Source: Myxococcales bacterium
Lineage (GTDB): Bacteria; Myxococcota; Myxococcia; Myxococcales; JAJYLH01
Length of the DNA stretch: 62,825 bases
NCBI GenBank assembly: GCA_021787845.1
Contig: JAJYLH010000032.1
Coordinates: 1-62,825, forward strand
Direction of reading: 5' to 3'
Shown here: positions 1 through 11,554 of the stretch, piece by piece
How the letters are laid out: each line of letters begins with the position of its first letter
Numbering within the stretch: the first letter of the stretch is position 1
Position numbers and translations under genes: made by a program
The notes under the pieces: model-generated
The model's database searches: none
What the model was told of the DNA's origin: nothing
What the model saw: only the letters and a program-made list of their open reading frames with translations

Positions 1-57
1 CCCGCGAACAGGCGCGTAACCACCTCTCCCGCTACGCCGACGGCAACCCACGCAACG

Positions 58-642
58 TCATCCTACGCTCCGCCCCAGCCCACCAGAAGGCTCATCTCCA
101 TGTGGTTTCAGAATAGCCGCACCCAATTCCTTTTGGTCCTGGGCGATATTCGGCTCGGCTGTTAGCACACTCAACAAGGCTCCACGAAGAGCCGCCAATT
201 TCCGTTCCTGCGCGGCCGTTCTAATACGCATCCACGTTGCTTCGAAAAGCGTAGCGAACTCGTCGGACTGATAGTAATCCTTCAGCTTCTCCAGGTCGTC
301 TTCAGTAACCTGCATGCGCTGGCTAAGATACTCCATCGTCTCGTCCACTTTCGTCTCGTCCACTTTCTTCCGCCATCGCTTATCCTTCGTTCCCCAATAG
401 AGTTGATCCAAGGCAGAACCGACCCCGAACGGTAGTAGGCGCAGGAGGGCCCTGAAACCAATTTCGGCACGATCGGCTAGCGCTACCTTCCGCGCGTCAA
501 ACCGAAAACGCACGATCATCGCATCTTGGAGATTGTCTTTGATCGCCGCCATCCTGCGCTTCCCCGCTCTTGCAACGAGCACGATCCCGCCGATGATGAG
601 GCCGGCGATAAGGAGTCCGATCACCTCAGCGAAAACTGTCAC
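58..642 (-). CDS. Single-pass membrane protein, last gene of the HEPN-FtsA operon
   Basis: A 194-aa protein with one hydrophobic segment at about residues 5-27, followed at once by basic residues (RAGKRR). This predicts a short outside N-terminus, one membrane helix and a long cytoplasmic domain. The rest is charged and mainly helical, with a small internal duplication (KVDET KVDET at about 94-103). I recognise no family. Its start overlaps the 3' end of the HEPN-FtsA gene by 17 bases on the same strand, so translation is probably coupled. A membrane partner suits an FtsA-like protein that carries its own membrane-targeting helix. Base composition is poorer in GC than the region beyond 3300. 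Confidence 0.7.
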   Translation of the reverse strand: MTVFAEVIGLLIAGLIIGGIVLVARAGKRRMAAIKDNLQDAMIVRFRFDARKVALADRAEIGFRALLRLLPFGVGSALDQLYWGTKDKRWRKKVDETKVDETMEYLSQRMQVTEDDLEKLKDYYQSDEFATLFEATWMRIRTAAQERKLAALRGALLSVLTAEPNIAQDQKELGAAILKPHGDEPSGGLGRSVG

Positions 643-2698
643 TAATCCACTTTACGAAAGCTCTTGGCACACGCCAGGGACGCGACTCGTCGGACAGATA
701 CGGTCGCAATTGCAACAGCCCCACCGCCGTCGCCAAGCGTGGGTCGCTAATAACCTCTTCGCCAAGCCATGGCACTCCTCGACGTACAGGGAGTGCCAAC
801 ACTTGCTCAGCTAACTCTTCGATGCCCACCAAGAGCGACGAGCCACCGGTGACCACTAGCCCGCTGTTGAGCTCGTCCTCGGCACCACACGCCCGGATCT
901 CCCGGAGGACGAGTTCGAAGATCTCCGCCATGCGTGGCTCGATGATTTCCCCGAGGATCTGCCGGGCTATCTTCCGCGGCGGCCGGTCGCCCATGCTGGG
1001 GACGTCGATCAGCTCCTCCGGCCCGCACATCGCCGCCAGGGCGCACCCATGTTCCCGCTTGATCCGCTCGGCGTCGGCCAGGGGCGTGCGCAGCCCAATG
1101 ACGACGTCATTCGTCACGAGTTCTCCGCCCACGGGAATCGCCGTAGCGTGGATGAGGGCTCCGTCCACGAACACCGCGAGGTCGGTGGTGCCGCCGCCGA
1201 TGTCGACTATGCAGGTTCCCAGTGCCCGCTCCTCTTCGGTCAGCACGCTCTGCGCGGATGCGAGGGCCTGAAACAGGGTTCCGCTCACTTTGAGGCCCGC
1301 AAGCTCCACAGACCTGTTGATGCTCCGTACTGCCGTGCGCAGCGCCACAACGATTAGCACGTCCGCTTCCAGTCGCTTGCCAGTGATGCCGTACGGGGTC
1401 TTGATGCCGCCTAGCCCGTCGACCACGAACTCTTGAGGAAGTACGTAGACCACCTCGCGATCGTTGGGAATGGCCGCCGCCTGCGCGATCTCATGGACCC
1501 TAGCGATGTCTGCCGACGTAATGTGGCTGCCGTGGATTTCCGTGATCCCGCGCGAGCGGAAAGCCTTGACGCTAGATCCCCCGACGCCGACGACGACGCT
1601 GTCGATATAGCATTTCGCGGACTTCTCCGCGTTCGCTATCGCTAGCCGTATCGCACCGACGGTTTGATCCATGTCGACGACCATCCCGTTGCGTAAGCCT
1701 CGGACATGCGCCTCCCCCGTCCCGAGAATCGTCAGCTCCCCGCTGGGCGACTGTTCACCGACTGCCACGGCCACCTTCGTCGTGCCGATGTCGAGCGCGA
1801 CGATCACCTCACCTCTCCTGGACGCAGGTTTTCTGGCATTGGGCGACGCCTGCGAAGGCACTTGACCCCTCTGGAGTGGATTACTTGGATGATCTTCGGA
1901 AGTCTCAGTCGCCGGCCGAGTGGCCTCTGTGGCACCTTTCACAGGTGCCTTCTTCCCGCTGGCCCGACGGCGTCCTCCACTGGTCGCGCTCGGCTCCGGT
2001 TGGCCACCCGAACTTTCCACTCCGCCAACCGCACCCGGCTCTAGTGAAATCACGCTCTTCGCGGCCTCGAGTGCTCCTTCACTCTCCGCAACTCGATGAC
2101 GGGCCTCGTTGGGTAAGAGATGATTACTCACATCCTCTGAAGTCTCTGAAATACCGCTATTCTCAAGTTCAGCCATTTCCGTGGAGACGTGTCGTATTCC
2201 ATCAGCAGGAAGCGCCCTTGTGCCCATGCTGTATTGTGCTCGCGTCTCTCGGGCTACTTCGTCCTCGTATTGCATCTGTGAATCAGATAACTGCTCACGT
2301 CTGTACAGCTCTTCCAGGCAGGATGCCGCTTCAGGATCGATCTCAGCGCAGAATTCCATGACCGTGCGTACGATCAATCTTAGCTGAACAGGATGAAGAG
2401 GCAACCCATGATGGGGCATCATGTTCCTAAGGTCCTTGGCGAGAAACAGCCTATTCATGAGCCCTGGATCATGTTGCCCGGCCTTCTCAACAGCTTCAAG
2501 TCCCTTGTGAATAGACTCTCGTGGACGAATAAACCGACCATGTTCAAGCTGCGCCTGAAGGTGAAAGAAGACCCGATTCACAACTTCCGCGTACTCGGTA
2601 GGCTTGGCGCGTTGGTAAAGAGTGGTGATTTCCTTCCATCCAAAATCTACATGGAGTTCACTGCGGCTCTTGATTTTTCTTCTGCTTGGGGAAGCCAC
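626..2698 (-). CDS. HEPN-like domain fused to FtsA-type actin ATPase
   Basis: The 690-aa protein has three parts. Residues 1-165 are helical and contain LRNMMPHHG at 90-98, a match to the HEPN ribonuclease signature R-N-x-x-x-H (R91, H96). Residues 170-295 are low complexity and probably a flexible linker. Residues 296-690 are FtsA: phosphate-1 loop ALDIGTTK (301-308), phosphate-2 DIGGGTTD (499-506), adenosine motif TGGSS (617-621), and a C-terminal amphipathic segment (FVKWISDSFR) resembling the FtsA membrane-targeting helix. Housekeeping FtsA is about 410-450 aa, sits in the division (dcw) cluster and has no such N-terminus. The gene overlaps both operon neighbours and is divergent from an RtcR-like regulator. 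The FtsA part is certain. The HEPN reading rests on one motif and predicted helicity. HEPN RNases act in toxin-antitoxin and CRISPR-linked defence, so an effector role is my inference. Confidence 0.88.
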   Translation of the reverse strand: MASPSRRKIKSRSELHVDFGWKEITTLYQRAKPTEYAEVVNRVFFHLQAQLEHGRFIRPRESIHKGLEAVEKAGQHDPGLMNRLFLAKDLRNMMPHHGLPLHPVQLRLIVRTVMEFCAEIDPEAASCLEELYRREQLSDSQMQYEDEVARETRAQYSMGTRALPADGIRHVSTEMAELENSGISETSEDVSNHLLPNEARHRVAESEGALEAAKSVISLEPGAVGGVESSGGQPEPSATSGGRRRASGKKAPVKGATEATRPATETSEDHPSNPLQRGQVPSQASPNARKPASRRGEVIVALDIGTTKVAVAVGEQSPSGELTILGTGEAHVRGLRNGMVVDMDQTVGAIRLAIANAEKSAKCYIDSVVVGVGGSSVKAFRSRGITEIHGSHITSADIARVHEIAQAAAIPNDREVVYVLPQEFVVDGLGGIKTPYGITGKRLEADVLIVVALRTAVRSINRSVELAGLKVSGTLFQALASAQSVLTEEERALGTCIVDIGGGTTDLAVFVDGALIHATAIPVGGELVTNDVVIGLRTPLADAERIKREHGCALAAMCGPEELIDVPSMGDRPPRKIARQILGEIIEPRMAEIFELVLREIRACGAEDELNSGLVVTGGSSLLVGIEELAEQVLALPVRRGVPWLGEEVISDPRLATAVGLLQLRPYLSDESRPWRVPRAFVKWISDSFR

Positions 2699-2957
2699 CT
2701 ACAGTCTCCCGCCACACAGTGTCGTCAAAGCCCATGATGTCACACAGCTTGTTAAACAGCCAGCTTTCGAGATCCATGAGTTCATTGTTGGCCTCGGCGC
2801 TGGAAAGTCCTTGCGTCTTGATCTTGTCGACGAGCTTCGACGCTTCAAGCGTAACAGTTTCAGAGACACCAATGAACTCGCGCGCAAGCCTGAGTTGGGT
2901 CTTGCGGTCAAGATTAAGACCAAGCGTCTCATGGTTGCGAGGTGATTCGCCTTCCAT
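2658..2957 (-). CDS. Small helical protein, first gene of the HEPN-FtsA operon
   Basis: A 99-aa charged, probably all-helical protein without a signal or membrane segment. Its 3' end overlaps the start of the HEPN-FtsA gene by 41 bases, in a different frame. I recognise no family. In HEPN toxin systems a small protein often precedes the toxin and acts as antitoxin or guard. That role is possible by position only: the MNT nucleotidyltransferase motif (GSx10DxD) that accompanies many HEPN toxins is absent. The ATG at 2957 follows AT-rich sequence without a clear Shine-Dalgarno site. Confidence 0.65.
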   Translation of the reverse strand: MEGESPRNHETLGLNLDRKTQLRLAREFIGVSETVTLEASKLVDKIKTQGLSSAEANNELMDLESWLFNKLCDIMGFDDTVWRETVGGFPKQKKNQEPQ

Positions 2958-3252
2958 ATGAAGAGTAGGTTAAGAATATAGTCCAATAATAGCATATGCT
3001 GGCCGTCGCAGCAAGCCATCTCCAACGGGGCTGGAACCACGGAGACAGAAGTGCCACCGACAAGGTTGGCGGCGACGTGCCTGTGCTGTGCTCGTCGCGG
3101 AATCTCTTGCCGCTCACCGCCCTCATCGTCCCAACCCCGCGCCTGACGCTCCCCGCCGAATCCGAGCATCCCTCGCGCTCTCGCCGCCGTCAAGCGCTTC
3201 CGCTTCGGCACCACGGTTGCCTTCGGCCGGACGGCGGGCGTAGGCTGCCGGC
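2958..3252. other. Divergent intergenic control region
   Basis: This 295-base gap separates the leftward HEPN-FtsA operon from the rightward RtcR-like gene. The operon-proximal side (2958-3000) is AT-rich with a short palindrome (AGCATATGCT), suited to a promoter for the operon. The other side is GC-rich and carries a -24/-12 sigma-54 match. I find no gene here. Confidence 0.5.
3206..3221 (+). promoter_or_regulatory. Candidate sigma-54 (-24/-12) promoter
   Basis: CGGCACCACGGTTGCC matches the TGGCAC-N5-TTGC consensus. The invariant GG (3207-3208) and GC (3219-3220) have the required ten bases between them. The site ends 31 bases before the ATG of the RtcR-like activator, so an activator of sigma-54 may be driving its own gene. 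A chance match in GC-rich DNA is possible. Confidence 0.45.
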
Positions 3253-4758
3253 ATGGCTCATGTCCTGGTCTCCTGGATCGGGCACACGGACCTTCGGGCG
3301 GTGACGGAGTCGGCGCGGGTCGGCTACGGGCCGGTCTTGAACGCCCTCCGGGGTCGTGCCTTCGACGCCGCGGTGCTCGTCACGAATTCACCGGAAGCGC
3401 AGGTGCAGGCCTTCGAGCAGTGGGTCGGCTCCGCTATCGAGCGACCGGTGTCGGTGTCCATCCGGCAGGTGTCGCTCACCTCGCCGATGAACTTCACCGA
3501 GGTGCACAACGCGGCGGTGGCCGGGTGTGAGGAGGCGGTGAAGTTTGGCGAGGGCGCAAACGAGCTGACGTTTCACCTCAGCCCCGGCACGCCGGTCATG
3601 GCCGCGGTCTGGATGATCCTGGCCAAATCGCGGTTCTCTGCAGCGAAGCCGAAGCTCATCGCCTCGTCGCACGAGAAGGGTGTCGAAGACGTGGACTTTC
3701 CCTTCGACCTGGTGGCGGAGTTCATGCCCGAAGTCTGGCGGCGTGAAGAGCTGCAGCGCTTGCAGTTAGCGGAAGCGAAGCCGGGGGCCACGGCACACTT
3801 CGGCGACATCGTGTACCGGAGCCCGGCGATGCGCCGGGTGGTGGGAATCGCAGAGCGGCTGGCGCCGACCGACGTGTCGGTCGTCATCGAAGGCGAGTCC
3901 GGCACCGGCAAGGAGCTGTTCGCCCGCGCCATCCACCAGGCCAGTGGGCGGGCCAAGGAGCCGTTCATCGCCGTGAACTGCGGCGCCATCCCCGACACCC
4001 TCGTTGAGTCCGAGTTCTTCGGCCACGTGAGGGGTGCGTTCACCGGCGCCGTCACCGATCGCGCGGGATACTTCGAGGCCGCCGACGGCGGCACGCTTTT
4101 CCTCGACGAAATCGGGGAGCTGCCGCTCCTCGCGCAGGCCAAGCTCCTGCGCGTACTCCAAGAGAAAGAGGTGCGCCGGATCGGCGCGGTCTCGTCCATG
4201 ACTCGGGTGGACGTGCGCGTCATCGCTGCCACCAACCGGAACCTGGTGGACGAAGTGGCGGCGGGGCGATTTCGGGGCGACCTCTACTACCGCCTGGCTC
4301 GGGCCGGCTTCCGGCTGCCCTCCCTCCGGGAGCGACGGGACGAGATCGACCTCCTCCTCGACGTCCTGATGAAGCGGGCGGAGGGCCAGGGTCTGCCCGA
4401 AAAAAAGCTTTCGGCTTCAGCGCGCGAGCTCCTTCGCAAACACTCCTGGCCCGGCAATGTCAGGGAGCTGGAGAACACGCTGTACCGTCTCCGGCTCTGG
4501 TCGGACCGGAAGGAGATCTCGGCGGATGACGTTCGGGATGTCCTGCATTCCGGCCAGGAATTGCCACCCGACCGCATTCTTGACCTGCCGATCGGCGAGG
4601 GCTTCAGCCTCCAAAGGATTCTTGATCGGGTTCGCGAGCACTACATCAGCCGCGCCCTGGCCGAGACCGGCGGGACAAAGTCGAAGGCCGCTAAATTATT
4701 GGGCTTTGCGAACGCCATGACCTTCGCGAACTGGCAGAAGAAACCCGCTCGCGAGTGA
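3253..4758 (+). CDS. RtcR-like CARF/sigma-54 transcriptional activator
   Basis: A 501-aa bacterial enhancer-binding protein. Residues 1-175 resemble the RtcR sensory domain, a CARF fold: a Rossmann-like start, and a strand-turn-helix reading [15 protein letters not shown] that parallels the HITTGTHVAQ stretch of E. coli RtcR. Residues 185-420 are the AAA+ sigma-54 domain, with Walker A GESGTGKE (214-221), the sigma-54 contact loop GAFTGA (261-266) and Walker B TLFLDEI (281-287). The C-terminus is a Fis-like HTH ([11 protein letters not shown]). CARF domains bind cyclic oligoadenylates or related RNA-end ligands. RtcR normally switches on the rtcBA RNA-repair operon, but neither gene is here. 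The divergent neighbour is the HEPN-FtsA operon, its likely target. The gene is much richer in GC than that operon. Confidence 0.9.
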
Positions 4759-4910
4759 CGGCACGACGGCTGCATCGGTAGCAGCCCGAACGGCACGGAG
4801 GGTGGTAGGCAGTAGCGCTGCCGCCCGGACTGAAGTCCAGGTCCAAGACGAGCGAACGTCACGCCGCATCAGCGGCTGCCGAGTCGTCTGTCCGTTGCCG
4901 GGAGGGCGTT

Positions 4911-5273
4911 ATGAAACACACGAAGCGTCGCCGTCGTCATCTCTGCTCGGCCTGCCATCAGCATCGGGCGCTCTTTCGCACTCGCCGCGGTCAGGTCAAG
5001 GCGGACCGGTCGCACGAAGTCTGCTTCCGCTGCTACCGCGCCGAGTGCGATCGGGTGCGCGCCGAAAAGCTGGCGCGCTCTGAAGCCGCCCGTGCGCTCC
5101 CCGCGCGCGGCCCTGTCGGCCGCGCACAGCGAAGCCGAGAGCGTTGCCCTCGGCCAGCCGGCGCGGACGCTGAAGGCTGTCCTGCCGCAGTTCGCCCGGG
5201 CGGCCGGCCAGCGGGCGGCGGCGGCGGCCGGCCGGCTCAGCACTCTCCACGCCGCCCTGGGCGACGCGGGTAA
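4911..5273 (+). CDS. Zinc-knuckle protein (CxxC...CxxC)
   Basis: Starts at an ATG eight bases after a strong GGGAGGG site. The first 60 residues hold CSACHQH and CFRCYRAE, two paired-cysteine motifs about 25 residues apart in a basic setting, a treble-clef or zinc-ribbon pattern that I recall as common in small proteins of GC-rich Proteobacteria. The last 60 residues are low complexity and overlap the next gene by about 180 bases in another frame, so the true C-terminus is uncertain; a frameshift near 5090 could explain the arrangement. Probably nucleic-acid binding. It appears to be the first gene of the transfer-like module. Confidence 0.55.
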   Translation: MKHTKRRRRHLCSACHQHRALFRTRRGQVKADRSHEVCFRCYRAECDRVRAEKLARSEAARALPARGPVGRAQRSRERCPRPAGADAEGCPAAVRPGGRPAGGGGGRPAQHSPRRPGRRG

Positions 5274-6867
5274 GAACCTCGCCGATGGGCAGGCGCGGCG
5301 CGACCACGATCTTTCACGGTTCCAGTCGAGCGAGACCTTGACCCGCCTGAAGCGGAAGCTCCTCTGGCGGGAAAAGCTCTTGGTCTTGGCCGAAGCCGTG
5401 GCCGTCTCCCTGGCCATCGCCTCGTTTCTCGGGCTGACCGACAACTACGGGGGAGCGGCACCGCTCTCGGCTTGGTTGTCGGGCGCATCGCTCGCGGCCT
5501 CGGCCGTTCTTTCGGGCTGGGGCTTGGCCTGGATCGGGGCCAAGCTCCTCGGCACCGGCCCCTTGCCCAAGCGGCTCGGCCTCATCGCAGGCCTCGGACT
5601 TGGGGCCGCCAGTCTCGCCTTCGCGGCGGCGATCGGGTTCGTGCGGTACGCCGGCGCGGACTCGCGCCTGTCTTCGGGCGCCGCCGCGGCCGGTTCGGTC
5701 GGCCTCGCGATCATCGTGTCGCTCTGCTCGGCGGTCGTGTTCACGACCTGCCTCATCACCCGGCGCCAGCTTCTGTTCGTAGAAGCTGAGCTCTCCGAGG
5801 TCACGAAGCGGAGCGACGCCCACGGTCGGGAAATCTCTCGGCTGACAATCGCTCGCGATGAGGCGGCCGAACGCGAAGCGGGCGCCACCCGCGAGTCCGG
5901 CATCGTTGACGAGCTTGAGACGGCGTTCGAAGCGGCTGTCCAGCTCATCGCCGGGAAACTGAGGGCCTACAACGCCATCCTGCCGGATCGGTTGGCGCGG
6001 GCGGTCAGCGCCTGGCGCACCCTGAAAGACCTCTCGGCTCCCGAGCTGGAAATGGTTGCTGCCACGGCCTTCCGGCTGGTGCCGGTGGACGAGAAGACCG
6101 GGGGGAAGACCGGAATCCTCAGCGTGCTGCGCACCCTGACGATGCTCCTCTTGGTGCTCGGGGCAACGTCTTTCTTCGCCTGTACCGACCATCGCCCTCC
6201 GGCAGCGGTCACGCTCATCTGCGACCCGTCCGGGAAAGCGCCGGAGGACGTGTGCTCACCGCTCCTCCTCTCTCTCGCGTACCAGCACTTCATCCAGGTG
6301 GGGCCGCCGCTCAATTCGCGGTTCACCATTATCTACACCGGTAGGAGTCTGTCGGCGACCGTGACCGCTCCGGCTCTCGTGGTGTTGCCGCGCTCGCGGG
6401 CCGACCGGGATGCCTGGATCGATCGGACGGTCACGGCGCTCGGTTCCGAGACCCTGCCGAACCTGCCGGCCGACGGAAAAGACAACGTGAGCGACCTCCT
6501 CTCCGCGCTCGTCATCGCGAGTGAGGACGCGAGCGCCTTCCCGGCGGATCGTCACTCGCTGTTCATCGCCTCGGACGGCCTGCTGGTCTCCCGAGAGCTC
6601 GGCCTCAACGCCGAGCGGCACGTGCCCTCTACCCAGGAAGTGCTGGCGCGGCTTCGCGAGAAACACATCCGGCTCGACCTCAGCCTCTTCACCGGTCGCC
6701 TCACCATCTGCGGGTTCTCCAACGCCGGGCTGACCGCTTCCGCTCTTGAGGCTCGTGCCGAACTCTGGCGCGAACTCATCGCGAGTAGCCAGGGCGGAAC
6801 GCCGATCATCCTGCCGACCTGCCGCGGTCTGTACCAGGACACCGTTCTCAACCGGCGGGTGCCTTGA
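5092..6867 (+). CDS. Multi-pass membrane protein with vWA-like ectodomain
   Basis: A 591-aa protein from a GTG; no ATG occurs in this frame before about 6050. A coiled N-terminus is followed by four hydrophobic segments (about residues 100-230), a charged coiled-coil stretch (230-330), another hydrophobic segment (about 345-362, ending near a Cys) and a soluble domain to the C-terminus. The soluble part shows a vWA/Rossmann rhythm, with a strand SLFIASDG and a helix dense in small residues, although a full DxSxS metal site is not evident. It lies eleven bases before the 50-aa TM gene and the coupling-ATPase gene. I infer a membrane platform for DNA transfer or replication of the element. No named family recognised. 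Confidence 0.7.
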   Translation: MRSPRAALSAAHSEAESVALGQPARTLKAVLPQFARAAGQRAAAAAGRLSTLHAALGDAGKNLADGQARRDHDLSRFQSSETLTRLKRKLLWREKLLVLAEAVAVSLAIASFLGLTDNYGGAAPLSAWLSGASLAASAVLSGWGLAWIGAKLLGTGPLPKRLGLIAGLGLGAASLAFAAAIGFVRYAGADSRLSSGAAAAGSVGLAIIVSLCSAVVFTTCLITRRQLLFVEAELSEVTKRSDAHGREISRLTIARDEAAEREAGATRESGIVDELETAFEAAVQLIAGKLRAYNAILPDRLARAVSAWRTLKDLSAPELEMVAATAFRLVPVDEKTGGKTGILSVLRTLTMLLLVLGATSFFACTDHRPPAAVTLICDPSGKAPEDVCSPLLLSLAYQHFIQVGPPLNSRFTIIYTGRSLSATVTAPALVVLPRSRADRDAWIDRTVTALGSETLPNLPADGKDNVSDLLSALVIASEDASAFPADRHSLFIASDGLLVSRELGLNAERHVPSTQEVLARLREKHIRLDLSLFTGRLTICGFSNAGLTASALEARAELWRELIASSQGGTPIILPTCRGLYQDTVLNRRVP

Positions 6868-6878
6868 GGCAGCCGACC

Positions 6879-7031
6879 ATGACCGCTGTCGCCTTCCTCG
6901 CTCTCGGTGTGCTCGCCCTAGCGGCTCTCGGCACCGGCTGGGCGAATTTCACCCGCCACCGGCAGGCGCTCCGGAAGCTCCGGCCGAGCCGGAAGACCTC
7001 CCTGAAAAAGCGAGCGGACGATGGGCCTTGA
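6879..7031 (+). CDS. 50-aa single-TM basic protein
   Basis: ATG at 6879 to TGA at 7029-7031. The first ~22 residues form one hydrophobic helix and the remainder is strongly basic (RHRQALRKLRPSRK). It overlaps the ATG of the downstream ATPase by 11 bases. VirD4/TraD coupling ATPases normally carry an N-terminal membrane anchor, which the next protein lacks, so this small protein may supply the anchor in trans. That is inference from arrangement. Confidence 0.6.
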   Translation: MTAVAFLALGVLALAALGTGWANFTRHRQALRKLRPSRKTSLKKRADDGP

Positions 7032-8553
7032 CCTGACACGCCTCGCGCTCGCGCTCGGCCGGCGGCGGCTGACCGGGAGCAGTTCCTCTTCGTCGAGCAC
7101 CACGACCGGCGTCGTGGTTGGCAGTACCGCTAGCGGTGAACCGGTACGGTTCGAAGCTCCATCCTTGGAACACGCCGGGCACCTCACGGTCTTCGGCTCG
7201 TCGGGCTGCGGCAAGACCTCGCTCATCGCCGGGTTCCTGGCCGCGGAGATTGCGGAAGACAACGCTCTTCCGCCCGAGCAGCGCCGGTCATTTCTCGTCT
7301 GCGACCCGAAGGGAGATACGGTAGCGCTGCTGCTTGCCGCGATGGCGGCTCAACCGGCACGACTCGACGACGTTCGGTGGCTGGACTCGTTTTCCGCGGG
7401 TGGTTTTCCGTTCAACCTGAATCACCTGGCGCTCGGGGACACCCCCCGCGACCTACGTGCCCTGGCCTTGGCCGATCTGGTCGGCCAAGTATCCACGTCC
7501 ACGGGCAAGTCACCGATGGGAGGCAGTGGCCACAGGCAACGGGATGTACTCCAGCACGTGATCCTCGGTGCGCTGTCTGTCCCGCATCCGCGCGCGAGCC
7601 TCTTGCTTGCCCTCGACGCCTTGGAACTGCCGGACGGCCCCCAACGTCTGGCCGCTGCCACGACCTCGAGCCGTGCGCGTCAGTTCTGCCTCTCGACCAG
7701 ACTCGGCGAAGAGCTGCGGGTGAGTTGCGCTTCACGCCTGAGGGTAGCGCTTTCGGCAACCGACAGCCTGAGCCGGCTCATTTCCGCGCCCACGTGCGTC
7801 CAGTTCGACGAGCTGCTCGCGCCGGGTCGCATCACGCTCGTCAACCTCGGGAATCCACCGGGGGGAATGCTGGCGCTCCAGGGCTTCTACGCCAACCTCG
7901 TGGTGCGTCTCGCGAGCGAGCACCTTCTCAGCCGGCGAAGTCCCTGGCCTGGATCGAGTACCTCCGTCGTCCTCGACGAAGCGCAGGTCACGGCCGAGAC
8001 GCTCGGGGACATCATGGAGCGGGCCTACACGGTCGGCCGCTCCAAGGGCATCAGCTTCGTCACCCTGACGCAGAGTCCGGTCCTGATCCAAGCCGCCTCG
8101 GACACGCTCCTTCGCGTTCTTCTCACCAACAGCGCCGCCGGCAAGCTCATCGGGAGACTCAGCGCCCCGGATGCCGAACTCCTGGCCAGGGAGCGTGCGC
8201 CGGGGAAGGGCGTGGCCGAGAGCGCGAGCCTGGTTCGGTCGCGCCTCGTGTCCACGATCACGAGCCTGGAGGACAGGGAGTTCATCTTCCTCAAGGCCGG
8301 CCAGCACCAGCGGTTCACTGCCGCCCCCCTCGACATCCCCGGCTGGGAGAGAGCGCTCGCGGAAAACGCCGACCGCGTCAAAGCTGTAGAGGAGCGGCTC
8401 TGCCTACCGAAAGACCTGCCGCCCCGCTTCTCCCTGACCGAGGTCGTGCTCCCGAAAAAAACTCGCGGTCATGGTGGACGCCAAGCGGCAGCCCCACCGT
8501 CCGGCTCACCGCCCTCTTCCACCTCCAAGCCGCCGCGCTCGCGGTGGGGATGA
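7021..8553 (+). CDS. VirD4/TraD-like coupling ATPase
   Basis: A 510-aa soluble P-loop ATPase. Walker A is GSSGCGKT (59-66), preceded by a serine-rich N-terminus instead of membrane helices. VLDEAQ near residue 317 is Walker B with a following Gln. The segment FVTLTQSP and the TraM-recognition-like C-terminal half fit the TraG/TraD/VirD4 group that pumps DNA through conjugation pores, or brings DNA to them. No relaxase gene is visible in the window, so the element may be mobilisable rather than self-transmissible, or its relaxase may lie further left. It forms an operon with the genes on either side: an 11-base overlap before and a three-base gap after. Confidence 0.8.
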   Translation: MGLDLTRLALALGRRRLTGSSSSSSSTTTGVVVGSTASGEPVRFEAPSLEHAGHLTVFGSSGCGKTSLIAGFLAAEIAEDNALPPEQRRSFLVCDPKGDTVALLLAAMAAQPARLDDVRWLDSFSAGGFPFNLNHLALGDTPRDLRALALADLVGQVSTSTGKSPMGGSGHRQRDVLQHVILGALSVPHPRASLLLALDALELPDGPQRLAAATTSSRARQFCLSTRLGEELRVSCASRLRVALSATDSLSRLISAPTCVQFDELLAPGRITLVNLGNPPGGMLALQGFYANLVVRLASEHLLSRRSPWPGSSTSVVLDEAQVTAETLGDIMERAYTVGRSKGISFVTLTQSPVLIQAASDTLLRVLLTNSAAGKLIGRLSAPDAELLARERAPGKGVAESASLVRSRLVSTITSLEDREFIFLKAGQHQRFTAAPLDIPGWERALAENADRVKAVEERLCLPKDLPPRFSLTEVVLPKKTRGHGGRQAAAPPSGSPPSSTSKPPRSRWG

Positions 8554-8556
8554 ACC

Positions 8557-8961
8557 ATGGGCAAAAAGAAAAAGCGGTTCCACCCGCTCTCGTTTCTCGT
8601 CGGTCTCATCAAGGCGACCTTCAAGCTCGGCCGCTTTCTCCTCGGCCTGGCCTGGCGCCTCGCGACGTTCACCGTGGAAGCGGCCCTCTGGCTCTTCCTC
8701 GGCGTGAAGTCCCTCTTCGGCTTCGGCCGGCAGCTCAGCCGGAGCGCGCGAGCGGCAGCGACCGGGGTCGTCTACTGCCCCGACGGTCACGCCATCCCGA
8801 TCGGCACGGGCGACGTGGTTCATTCGTGCTCTTCGTGCGGCTTCCGCTACCGCGGGTCGCCCTTGGTGTGCCCGAACCCCGAGTGCGAGGCGCCGGTCGC
8901 AGCCTACGTGGACTGCCCCACGTGTGGGCTCTCGGTCTCCTCACCTTTCCGGAGTCGTTGA
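8557..8961 (+). CDS. Membrane-associated double zinc-ribbon protein
   Basis: 134 aa. It opens with a basic patch (MGKKKKRF), then amphipathic or hydrophobic helices over about residues 12-60. A cysteine-rich C-terminal half follows, with YCPDGH, CSSCGF, CPNPEC and CPTCG, enough ligands for two rubredoxin-like zinc ribbons. Its stop overlaps the next ATG by one base. The role is unknown; the position suggests an accessory factor for the coupling ATPase. Confidence 0.7.
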   Translation: MGKKKKRFHPLSFLVGLIKATFKLGRFLLGLAWRLATFTVEAALWLFLGVKSLFGFGRQLSRSARAAATGVVYCPDGHAIPIGTGDVVHSCSSCGFRYRGSPLVCPNPECEAPVAAYVDCPTCGLSVSSPFRSR

Positions 8962-9740
8962 TGGCCCTCCCCGTCGTGACCGACCGCGACCGGAAGCTCC
9001 TCCGACTCATTGGGGAGGTCGGGTACGTGTCCACGCCGCAGGCCAGCCGTGAACTCTTCCCGAGCCACGACCGGCTTCGTCGGCGGGTGAAAGGACTCAC
9101 GGCGGCGAAGCTTGTCAGCGTCACCGTGACCTCCTCGACCGAGCCGCGTCTCCTGTCGCTGACCCGTAGGGGTCTCGCTCTCCTTGTTCGGAAAGAGCCG
9201 GAGCTGGAAGGCAAGCTCCGCTTACCGGGACCCCTGCGGCTTGCCGGCGTGGCCCACCGGCTGGCCGTGACCGACGCCCACCTGTACGCGAAAGGGCTCG
9301 GACAGAAACGCGGAGCACCGCTCCTCTCCTGGTCGGGTCCGGGCGGGAGCCTCGGGGCGGAGCTCGGGCTCGACGCCCTCGGCCTTCGTCCCGACGGGCT
9401 GGCGGAGTTCAAGACGCCGGACGGCAGCGTCGTCATCGCCGTGGAGGTGGATCGCGGCACCGAGACGCTGAAGGTGCTCGAACGCAAGCTCGAGCGCTAC
9501 CGGCCGGCGGCCGAAGACGGCCGACTCGACGCTCTCTGGCTGGTCGTCGATAGCGGTGCCGGCCGGCTCCTGACGCTCGCCGGCGTTGCCGAGCGGGCGG
9601 AACTCGACGAGTGGGTGCGGGTCTTGCCTGTCGATCACCTCCGGCAAAGACCGGTCCGGGAGCTGCCGGGGCGCGGGCAGGAGGAGGATGGGCCGTCAGG
9701 CCCTAATCCCGCGAACACGGCTGTTCACGATCGAAGGTGA
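8961..9740 (+). CDS. Replication-relaxation family protein
   Basis: 259 aa from the ATG at 8961. Residues 1-75 form a winged helix (TDRDRKLLRLIGEVGYVSTP, then a recognition helix). The second half has a PD-(D/E)XK-like core, AVEVDRGTE followed by a K-rich helix and a LWLVVDSG strand, as in Pfam PF13814 replication-relaxation proteins. These are best known from plasmids and integrative elements of Bacillus and Streptomyces, so their use in a Gram-negative element is unusual. Probably binds the element's origin. Confidence 0.78.
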   Translation: MALPVVTDRDRKLLRLIGEVGYVSTPQASRELFPSHDRLRRRVKGLTAAKLVSVTVTSSTEPRLLSLTRRGLALLVRKEPELEGKLRLPGPLRLAGVAHRLAVTDAHLYAKGLGQKRGAPLLSWSGPGGSLGAELGLDALGLRPDGLAEFKTPDGSVVIAVEVDRGTETLKVLERKLERYRPAAEDGRLDALWLVVDSGAGRLLTLAGVAERAELDEWVRVLPVDHLRQRPVRELPGRGQEEDGPSGPNPANTAVHDRR

Positions 9741-9824
9741 TTCTCGGTGTTTTCACACCGAAGGCCCGACGGTCGTGGGTGGGTCGAACGGTGGGGCTCT
9801 CGGGTGGGGGGGGGTGGAGAGGCC

Positions 9825-10100
9825 GTGACGGACGACCGACAACCGCCTACGGGAGAAGAGCCGGAGGGCTGCCCCTCGGGGGAGCCGCTCGTCCTCACCG
9901 TGGACGAAGCCGCCGGGCTCCTGCGCCTCAACCGGAAGAGCGTGTACGAGGCCATCCGCCGGGGCGAACTTCCGGGAGTCAGGCGAGTCGGAGCGGCCCT
10001 CCGGATCCACCGCGAAACGCTGGTGCGGTGGCTCGCGTCGGGCGCTACCATCGGGTCGCCCTGCCAAGGGGCGCGCCTTCGCTCACGGAGAGATCCATGA
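9825..10100 (+). CDS. Excisionase-like helix-turn-helix protein
   Basis: About 91 aa from a GTG at 9825, which follows GGGTGGAGAGG; an upstream ATG at 9747 would add a low-complexity tail. The core LTVDEAAGLLRLNRKSVYEA with RRGELPGVRRVG and an R-W-L end is the MerR-like HTH_17 excisionase domain. It overlaps the integrase start in an ATGA arrangement, the usual xis-int pair. Likely directs excision and may repress integration. Confidence 0.85.
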   Translation: MTDDRQPPTGEEPEGCPSGEPLVLTVDEAAGLLRLNRKSVYEAIRRGELPGVRRVGAALRIHRETLVRWLASGATIGSPCQGARLRSRRDP

Positions 10101-11239
10101 GCGTGAGACACGTGAAGCGCCGGGACCGGAAGACCGGCGAGGTGAGGACCTTCCTGATGGTCGACGTCGTCTTCGAGCATCCGGACGGACGGACCGAGCG
10201 CGTGCGGAAAGTGTCGCCCGTGCAGACGAAGAGAGGAGCGGAGCAGTACGAGCGTGACCTGCGTCAGGCGATCCTCGGGGGCCAGCGCCAGCCCGAGGTG
10301 AAAGCGAAGGAGAACGTGCCCACCCTCGGGGAGTTCGCGCCGGAGTTCATCGAGGGGTACGCGAAGGCGAACCAGGAGAAGCCCTCCACCATCCACTCGA
10401 AAGAAGCCATCATCAGGACCTACCTCGTGCCGCGGTTCGGCGGCAAGCGCCTCGACCAGATCGAAACGGTGGACGTGCAGCGCCTGAAAGGGAGCCTCCA
10501 GAAGCTCAAGCCGAAGACCGTGAACAACGTGCTCTCGTGCCTCCTGACGCTCTTCAAGACCGCTGTCGAGTGGGGCGTCGTCGAGAACCGGCCGACGGTG
10601 AAGCTCCTCAAGGTGCCGAAGACTGAGGTCGCCTTCTACGAGCCCGAAGAGTACGAGCGGCTCGTGGAAGCGGCGGGAGCCATCGACCCGCGCCTCGAGA
10701 TCATGGTGCTCCTCGGCGGCGATGCCGGACTCCGTTCGGGCGAGATCATCGCCGTCGAGTGGAGCGACATCGACTTCAAGCGCGGCCTCCTCAAGGTGCA
10801 GCGCTCGGAGTGGCGGGGCCAAGTGACCGTGCCGAAGGGCGGACGGAGCCGGCAGGTGAAACTGACCGACCGGCTGCTCGAGAAGCTCCGGGCGCACCGG
10901 AACCTCCGGGTTCGGGTGCTCAGCCGCGACGGTGGCGACCAAGTCACGCGCCAGGTGCTCTCCGGCTGGATGGCGACGGCGCAGCGCCGGGCGAACTTGA
11001 AAGAGACCGGGGCGCTCCACATCCTGCGCCACACGTTCTGCTCCCGCCTCGCTCTGCTCGGCGCGCCGACGATGGCGATCAAGGAGCTGGCCGGTCACCA
11101 GGACATTTCGACGACGCAGAAGTACATGCACCTGTCCCCGGCGGCGAAGGAGAGCGCTATTGCTCTCCTCAACGGCGCGACGGAGCAGGTTTACGGCAAC
11201 CTGACGGCAACACAGACCACAAAGGCCGGGAACCCCTAG
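10097..11239 (+). CDS. int: Tyrosine integrase of the element
   Basis: 380 aa from the ATG at 10097 (ACGGAGAG eight bases upstream). An N-terminal SAM-like core-binding domain spans about residues 70-160. The catalytic domain shows Arg in GLRSGE, HILRHTF (HxxR), LAGHQDIS (second His) and Tyr in TTQKYMH, the complete tyrosine-recombinase set. It stops only 16 bases from the encoded CCA end of the tRNA-Asp gene, the classic place for an integrase that uses a tRNA 3' end as attachment site. Confidence 0.93.
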   Translation: MSVRHVKRRDRKTGEVRTFLMVDVVFEHPDGRTERVRKVSPVQTKRGAEQYERDLRQAILGGQRQPEVKAKENVPTLGEFAPEFIEGYAKANQEKPSTIHSKEAIIRTYLVPRFGGKRLDQIETVDVQRLKGSLQKLKPKTVNNVLSCLLTLFKTAVEWGVVENRPTVKLLKVPKTEVAFYEPEEYERLVEAAGAIDPRLEIMVLLGGDAGLRSGEIIAVEWSDIDFKRGLLKVQRSEWRGQVTVPKGGRSRQVKLTDRLLEKLRAHRNLRVRVLSRDGGDQVTRQVLSGWMATAQRRANLKETGALHILRHTFCSRLALLGAPTMAIKELAGHQDISTTQKYMHLSPAAKESAIALLNGATEQVYGNLTATQTTKAGNP

Positions 11240-11255
11240 GATTCCCGGCCTTTTT

Positions 11256-11256
<1 letters not shown>
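11221..11256 (+). terminator. Intrinsic terminator after the integrase
   Basis: AAAGGCCGGGAA and ATTCCCGGCCTTTT form a 12-bp stem around an eight-base loop, followed by six T residues. The stem spans the last codons and stop of the integrase and its T-run touches the tRNA CCA end. It also has an A-run on the other side, so it may shield the element from read-through out of the tRNA genes. Confidence 0.85.
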
Positions 11257-11332
<76 letters not shown>

Positions 11333-11354
11333 GTTCACCTCTCCGGGTCGCTCT

Positions 11355-11429
11355 TGGTAGGCGGGACAGGCTTCGAACCTGCGACCCTCGGTGTGTAAGA
11401 CCGATGCTCTACCGCTGAGCTACCCGCCC
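11355..11429 (-). tRNA. tRNA-Val (TAC)
   Basis: On the minus strand, acceptor GGGCGGG pairs with CCCGCCT (one G-T), discriminator A, CCA encoded. Anticodon stem TCGGT/ACCGA holds the loop CTTACAC, giving TAC. T-arm GCAGG-TTCGAAG-CCTGT. It lies 22 bases upstream of tRNA-Asp and is probably co-transcribed with it. Confidence 0.95.
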
Positions 11430-11554
11430 AAACGCGGGTGGCCTTATGCCCGAAAGACCGTCCGAGGCGCAAGAAAAAAGAGAACCGGCTCGCGCGCCCC
11501 CTTCGAGAACGCTGGCGTTGGCGCGGTTCTGCCCGCTAGAAGCATCGGCCTCCG

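Follow-up and report, generated by a model that had tools for sequence, protein, structure and literature searches.

A second, N-terminally extended FtsA encoded beside an apparent mobile island in a Myxococcales genome

The divisome protein FtsA is nearly always the product of a single-copy gene in the dcw cluster. The contig analysed here (62,825 nucleotides, hereafter the window) encodes a protein in which a complete FtsA follows a long N-terminal region of its own, raising the question of what an FtsA with an extra domain is doing in this position. The original prediction was that the extra domain is a HEPN-like RNase, fused to FtsA to give a nucleotide-gated, membrane-recruited effector that senses or attacks division. 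Here we find that the fusion to FtsA is beyond chance, whereas the HEPN-like motif is not. We describe the gene as a mobile-element-associated, N-terminally extended FtsA paralogue, seen so far in one genome, and do not claim it as a HEPN–FtsA fusion.

A complete FtsA in a second copy

The predicted open reading frame is real and lies on the minus strand, a point absent from the original prediction; the plus-strand frame over the same interval has many stops (Table 1). Its GTG start codon is preceded by a good ribosome-binding site (GGGAG, some 8 nt upstream), and the frame runs through 690 codons with no stop or frameshift. In the translation, a helical stretch extends to about residue 136–159 and gives way to a linker that reaches residue 296. 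A linker ahead of FtsA had been anticipated, although at 125 residues rather than the roughly 137 found.

Table 1 Features of the fusion gene, its operon and the neighbouring island
Feature	Position	Strand	Description	Basis
Multicopy repeat end	1–129	.		blastn against own-genome loci
194-aa orphan	58–642	−	Downstream of fusion gene, overlapping it by 17 nt; one N-terminal transmembrane helix	Hydropathy
Fusion gene	626–2698	−	690 aa: orphan helical N-terminal domain, linker, complete FtsA	ORF, translation, FtsA profiles
Complete FtsA module	626–1810 (with stop)	−	Residues 297–690 (394 residues)	TIGR01174; identity to host FtsA
C-terminal amphipathic basic tail	629–685	−	Residues 672–690	Hydrophobic moment
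Approximate subdomain 2B	824–1033	−	Residues 556–625; FtsZ-facing	Alignment
SHS2/1C domain of FtsA	1349–1579	−	Residues 374–450	PF02491, 81.5 bits
Flexible linker	1811–2221	−	Residues 160–296; low-complexity	Sequence, composition
N-terminal orphan domain	2222–2698	−	Residues 1–159; predicted all-helical	AlphaFold2 single-sequence, low confidence
Rx4H motif (HEPN-like)	2411–2428	−	R91-N92-M-M-P-H96	Sequence, background frequency
99-aa orphan	2658–2957	−	Upstream of fusion gene, overlapping it by 41 nt	ORF
RtcR_PspF2-type CARF-AAA-HTH sigma54 activator	3253–4758	+	Divergent from operon	PADLOC, 579 bits
FtsK/TraD/VirD4-like ATPase	7021–8553	+		Weak matches to TraG-D_C, T7SS EccC, mad8
Replic_Relax protein	8964–9740	+		PF13814, 64 bits
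Tyrosine recombinase (integrase) frame	9737–11239	+		PF00589, 89.5 bits
Excisionase-like (Xis-like) HTH_17 protein	9747–10100	+		PF12728, 52.5 bits
tRNA-Asp	11256–11332	−	Putative integration site	ARAGORN

The FtsA module scores 382.7 bits against TIGR01174 over profile positions 1–370 of 371 (cut-off 175.85), and both PF14450 and the inserted SHS2/1C domain PF02491 exceed their cut-offs. The fusion module keeps 44 of the 48 alignment columns that do not vary among 17 other FtsAs (the E. coli protein being one of the 17), the same number as the host FtsA. In the alignment with the host protein, subdomain 2B is the best conserved part (76%) and 1C the least conserved folded part (57%); in known structures, the FtsZ tail docks on 2B. 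The last 15 residues reach a 15-mer hydrophobic moment of 0.84, a value attained by 0.08% of shuffles. Profiles, invariant columns and tail moment thus agree with the predicted full-length FtsA carrying nucleotide-site residues and a terminal amphipathic helix. Rough NG86 estimates of divergence from the host FtsA (dN 0.24, dS 0.67; dN/dS about 0.36), taken together with the retained invariant positions, suggest that the module has been maintained. On this sequence evidence it is apparently functional, and its conservation leads us to infer that it binds FtsZ and localizes to the Z-ring.

The window is a whole contig of a 6.24-Mb genome that is 98% complete and drafted in 153 contigs. On another contig, C128, the same genome carries an ordinary ftsQ–ftsA–ftsZ cluster with an intact ftsA, and there is a single FtsZ match genome-wide. 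The fusion is therefore a second, accessory FtsA and not the organism's only one, which would have counted against the original prediction, and it lies, as predicted, outside any dcw cluster. Among the 185 genomes of the phylum that match the module (this query, E ≤ 1e-30), 183 have a single FtsA match. The module is 66% identical to the host FtsA and about 48–52% identical to other FtsAs, and in the tree it is sister to the host protein (SH-aLRT 100) on a branch about four times longer (0.54 versus 0.13), a position that points to a lineage-specific duplicate or to arrival from a close relative. At some positions, P588 and I546 for example, the fusion retains a widely conserved residue where the host copy has diverged, so it is not a recent copy of the present host gene. 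The FtsAs on 14 genome contigs matched by the module lie in open frames of 406–561 aa, none with an N-terminal extension of comparable length, and no FtsA relatives were found in viral contigs. Compared with FtsA as a family (TIGR01174; PF14450 plus PF02491), the fusion has the same domain order, invariant residues, SHS2/1C insert and amphipathic tail, but it is a second copy, lies outside dcw, evolves faster, has 296 extra N-terminal residues that include the orphan helical domain, and is apparently on mobile DNA. As a separate observation, the host's canonical FtsA (positions 820–2103 of locus L001, on C128) is itself unusual in deviating at four of the 48 positions invariant in the 17 other FtsAs.

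The N-terminal domain and the HEPN family

The motif RNMMPH was found at R91–H96, where the original prediction had placed it. HEPN domains, as surveyed by Anantharaman et al. (2013; PMC3710099), comprise 100–120 residues in two alpha-hairpins (four helices); their Rx4-6H motif ends helix 3 and extends into the loop that leads to helix 4, the R is followed by a polar residue (N, D or H), and helix 2 often carries E-x3-[KR], with an acidic residue. Single-sequence AlphaFold2 predicted, with low confidence, helices at residues 21–30, 33–52, 60–76, 78–93, 103–120 and 122–136. R91 and H96 fall at one predicted helix end, before the next helix, as in the survey, and E38-x3-R42 falls within the predicted helix 33–52, although such patterns are common by chance. 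Structure prediction and fold search, proposed as a check of the HEPN claim, thus gave a helix pattern that fits, but the two models of the region have pLDDT values of 46–48 and Foldseek returned no meaningful PDB fold match for either; the matches obtained were to unrelated helical proteins and were rejected.

Searches of Pfam, NCBIfam, PADLOC and PHROGs gave no HEPN or other profile match to the N-terminal domain, even at loose cut-offs, and no PDB chain matched it by sequence; divergent HEPNs can escape single-sequence profile searches. When the N-terminal region is shuffled, R-x4-6-H turns up in 92% of the shuffles and the stricter RNx3H in 1.5%; RNx3H also occurs in 3.4% of 296 coding-like ORFs from the sequences analysed. 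Among 40 window proteins, RNx3H was seen in two where about 1.3 are expected, the second case being unrelated. Given these background frequencies the motif carries little weight alone, and with no detectable relatives and a signature at chance level, HEPN identity is not demonstrable. The fusion shares with the HEPN superfamily (PMC3710099) the Rx4H motif with N after R, its predicted helix-end position and the domain size, but has no detectable profile, sequence or fold similarity to it. The claim of HEPN identity is accordingly not supported by these searches; we regard it as possible but on balance doubtful, and a nucleotide-gated effector attacking division as hypothetical.

No homologue of the N-terminal domain was detected in 195 genomes of the phylum or in 396 and 398 genomes of two other phyla (about 990 altogether), nor in plasmids, phages, viral contigs or genome contigs. 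Several weak candidates were set aside: seven matches at E 0.003–0.01 in the 794 genomes of the other phyla were at chance level, and those that realigned lacked the motif; a match in locus L066 was also at chance level; one in G106 (locus L009) was not in a plausible gene; and one in Sinorhizobium (H41, E 2) lay inside an unrelated helical ORF resembling a CYTH–CHAD protein. The host genome itself has seven PF05168 HEPN matches (L071, L075, L080 and L082–L085), all elsewhere than the fusion gene, so HEPN-type toxin–antitoxin genes are probably common in it; as evidence on the N-terminal domain these matches were set aside. DUF4145 and HEPN_Apea are absent from the host genome.

An overlapping operon next to an apparent island

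The fusion gene overlaps an orphan gene on either side, and the overlaps indicate that the three genes probably form one operon with the fusion gene in the middle. Neither orphan found a relative in profile and sequence searches, the 99-aa protein matching no family, and the phylum's 194 other genomes hold no relative of the operon. Its codon usage is foreign-looking: GC3 is 0.76 in the FtsA module and 0.52–0.62 in the rest of the operon, compared with 0.94 in the host ftsA and 0.79–0.85 in neighbouring genes. The repeat whose end opens the contig recurs at nine other places in the genome (96–100% identity over up to 139 nt), often close to contig ends and in several cases at contig starts; it probably marks the terminus of a transposable element at which the assembly breaks. 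The last 25 or so residues of the 194-aa orphan are read from this repeat, and because the frame runs into it the gene is probably cut short.

On the other side of the operon lie, from left to right, genes for the CARF activator, a protein of unknown type, the FtsK/TraD-like ATPase, a protein whose cysteine pattern resembles a zinc ribbon, Replic_Relax, the HTH protein and the recombinase; only 17 nt separate the end of the recombinase frame from the tRNA-Asp 3′ end. An integrase, an HTH_17 protein and Replic_Relax beside a tRNA gene are arranged as in an integrative element that uses tRNA-Asp as its site, and the interval 3253–11332 is apparently a tRNA-Asp-integrated island. A search of window positions 1–11500 found no second copy of the tRNA end (att), and the left side runs off the contig. 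Because the island's other end lies off the contig, we infer rather than observe that the operon is its cargo; with that end missing and the island neighbours having host-like GC3, the operon may be a separate insertion.

We also sought a sigma54 link from the RtcR-type regulator to the operon. Sigma54-like sites at 3206 and 4759 (+), ahead of the regulator and the next plus-strand genes, suggest self-activation by the regulator and control of the genes that follow. The good sites all face the plus strand and none was found facing the operon, which we therefore do not place under the CARF regulator.

Readings of the locus

The reading that we favour, tentatively and as a nearly balanced proposition, is that the gene encodes an accessory FtsA that stems from the host lineage, is borne by a mobile element and serves it as a targeting module, modulating host division. 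It draws on the presence of a second FtsA and its sister position, the retained invariant positions, subdomain 2B, dN/dS and tail, the gene overlaps, the GC3 values and the mobility genes; counting against it are the single genome, the want of relatives for the N-terminal domain and the partners, and a downstream partner that is perhaps truncated. In this proposal the operon would be cargo of the tRNA-Asp-integrated island, and the FtsA module would bind ATP, FtsZ and membrane like an ordinary FtsA, carrying the N-terminal domain to the host Z-ring on its long tether. There the domain, be it a HEPN RNase or a module that binds without catalysis, might modulate or block division for the benefit of the element, or sense disturbed division, and the 99-aa and membrane-anchored 194-aa partners may regulate the fusion protein or be co-recruited.

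The emphasis could lie instead on catalysis, with a divergent HEPN RNase for which FtsA provides membrane or Z-ring targeting or a decoy for phage division inhibitors; disturbance of FtsA or FtsZ would free the RNase and the cell would stop (abortive infection), the 99-aa protein being a possible antitoxin. The RNx3H motif with N after R, its helix-end position, E38-x3-R42 and a length of about 115 residues fit the survey of the family (PMC3710099), phages do encode FtsZ inhibitors (PMC3961180, PMC10714956), and the apparent mobile-element location suits such a role. We nevertheless consider this unlikely, as the motif is at background frequency, HEPN profile, PDB and fold matches are lacking, and no homologue shows conservation of the R and H. 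The fully conserved module, its sister position to the host FtsA and the failure to match any toxin or defence family would suit an ordinary accessory divisome paralogue that adapts division to a growth state through a non-catalytic interaction domain, the integrase being nearby by coincidence; the foreign-looking GC3 of the operon, its lack of relatives among the phylum's 194 other genomes and its position adjoining a repeat and island genes make this improbable.

Chance fusion of a duplicated ftsA to an adjacent frame, with the product now on its way to being lost, would account for the long branch, the probably truncated downstream gene and the singleton distribution, but is quite improbable for a gene with 690 uninterrupted codons, 44 of 48 invariant positions, an amphipathic tail and a dN/dS of about 0.36. 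An assembly artefact joining two genes is scarcely credible: the genome is a fragmented draft and composition shifts within the gene, but at 66% identity the FtsA part is no fragment of the host ftsA, and the frame runs unbroken through the linker, which has the GC3 of the N-terminal part. More elaborate, and distinctly far-fetched, is a scheme in which the element captured a host-lineage FtsA as bait and tether for a HEPN RNase, to be set free at the Z-ring upon disturbance of division by a phage or rival element, with the products of RNA damage sensed by the CARF (RtcR-type) regulator that drives element genes. We know of no defence or conflict effector built on a divisome actin.

The accessory FtsA that we favour has a possible functional analogy, and only that, in CbtA and lambda Kil (PMC5624674, PMC3961180), products of toxin modules or mobile DNA that target the Z-ring or cytoskeleton of the host; those are small FtsZ or MreB inhibitors, whereas here the divisome protein itself would be the targeting module. 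In agreement with the original prediction, we know of no described HEPN–FtsA fusion. Among 5.39 million open papers, five contain both words: a paper on conflict systems (PMC7159879) has HEPN and FtsA once each, both in its reference list, and the other four were assessed from their titles. The word 'FtsA' is absent from the HEPN survey (PMC3710099). An intact second FtsA with an extra domain on an apparent mobile element would offer a natural way into the question of how outside DNA could reach the division ring. Should the extra domain prove active, the protein would represent a new type of division-targeted effector; if inactive, it would still be a natural FtsA fusion useful in divisome work.
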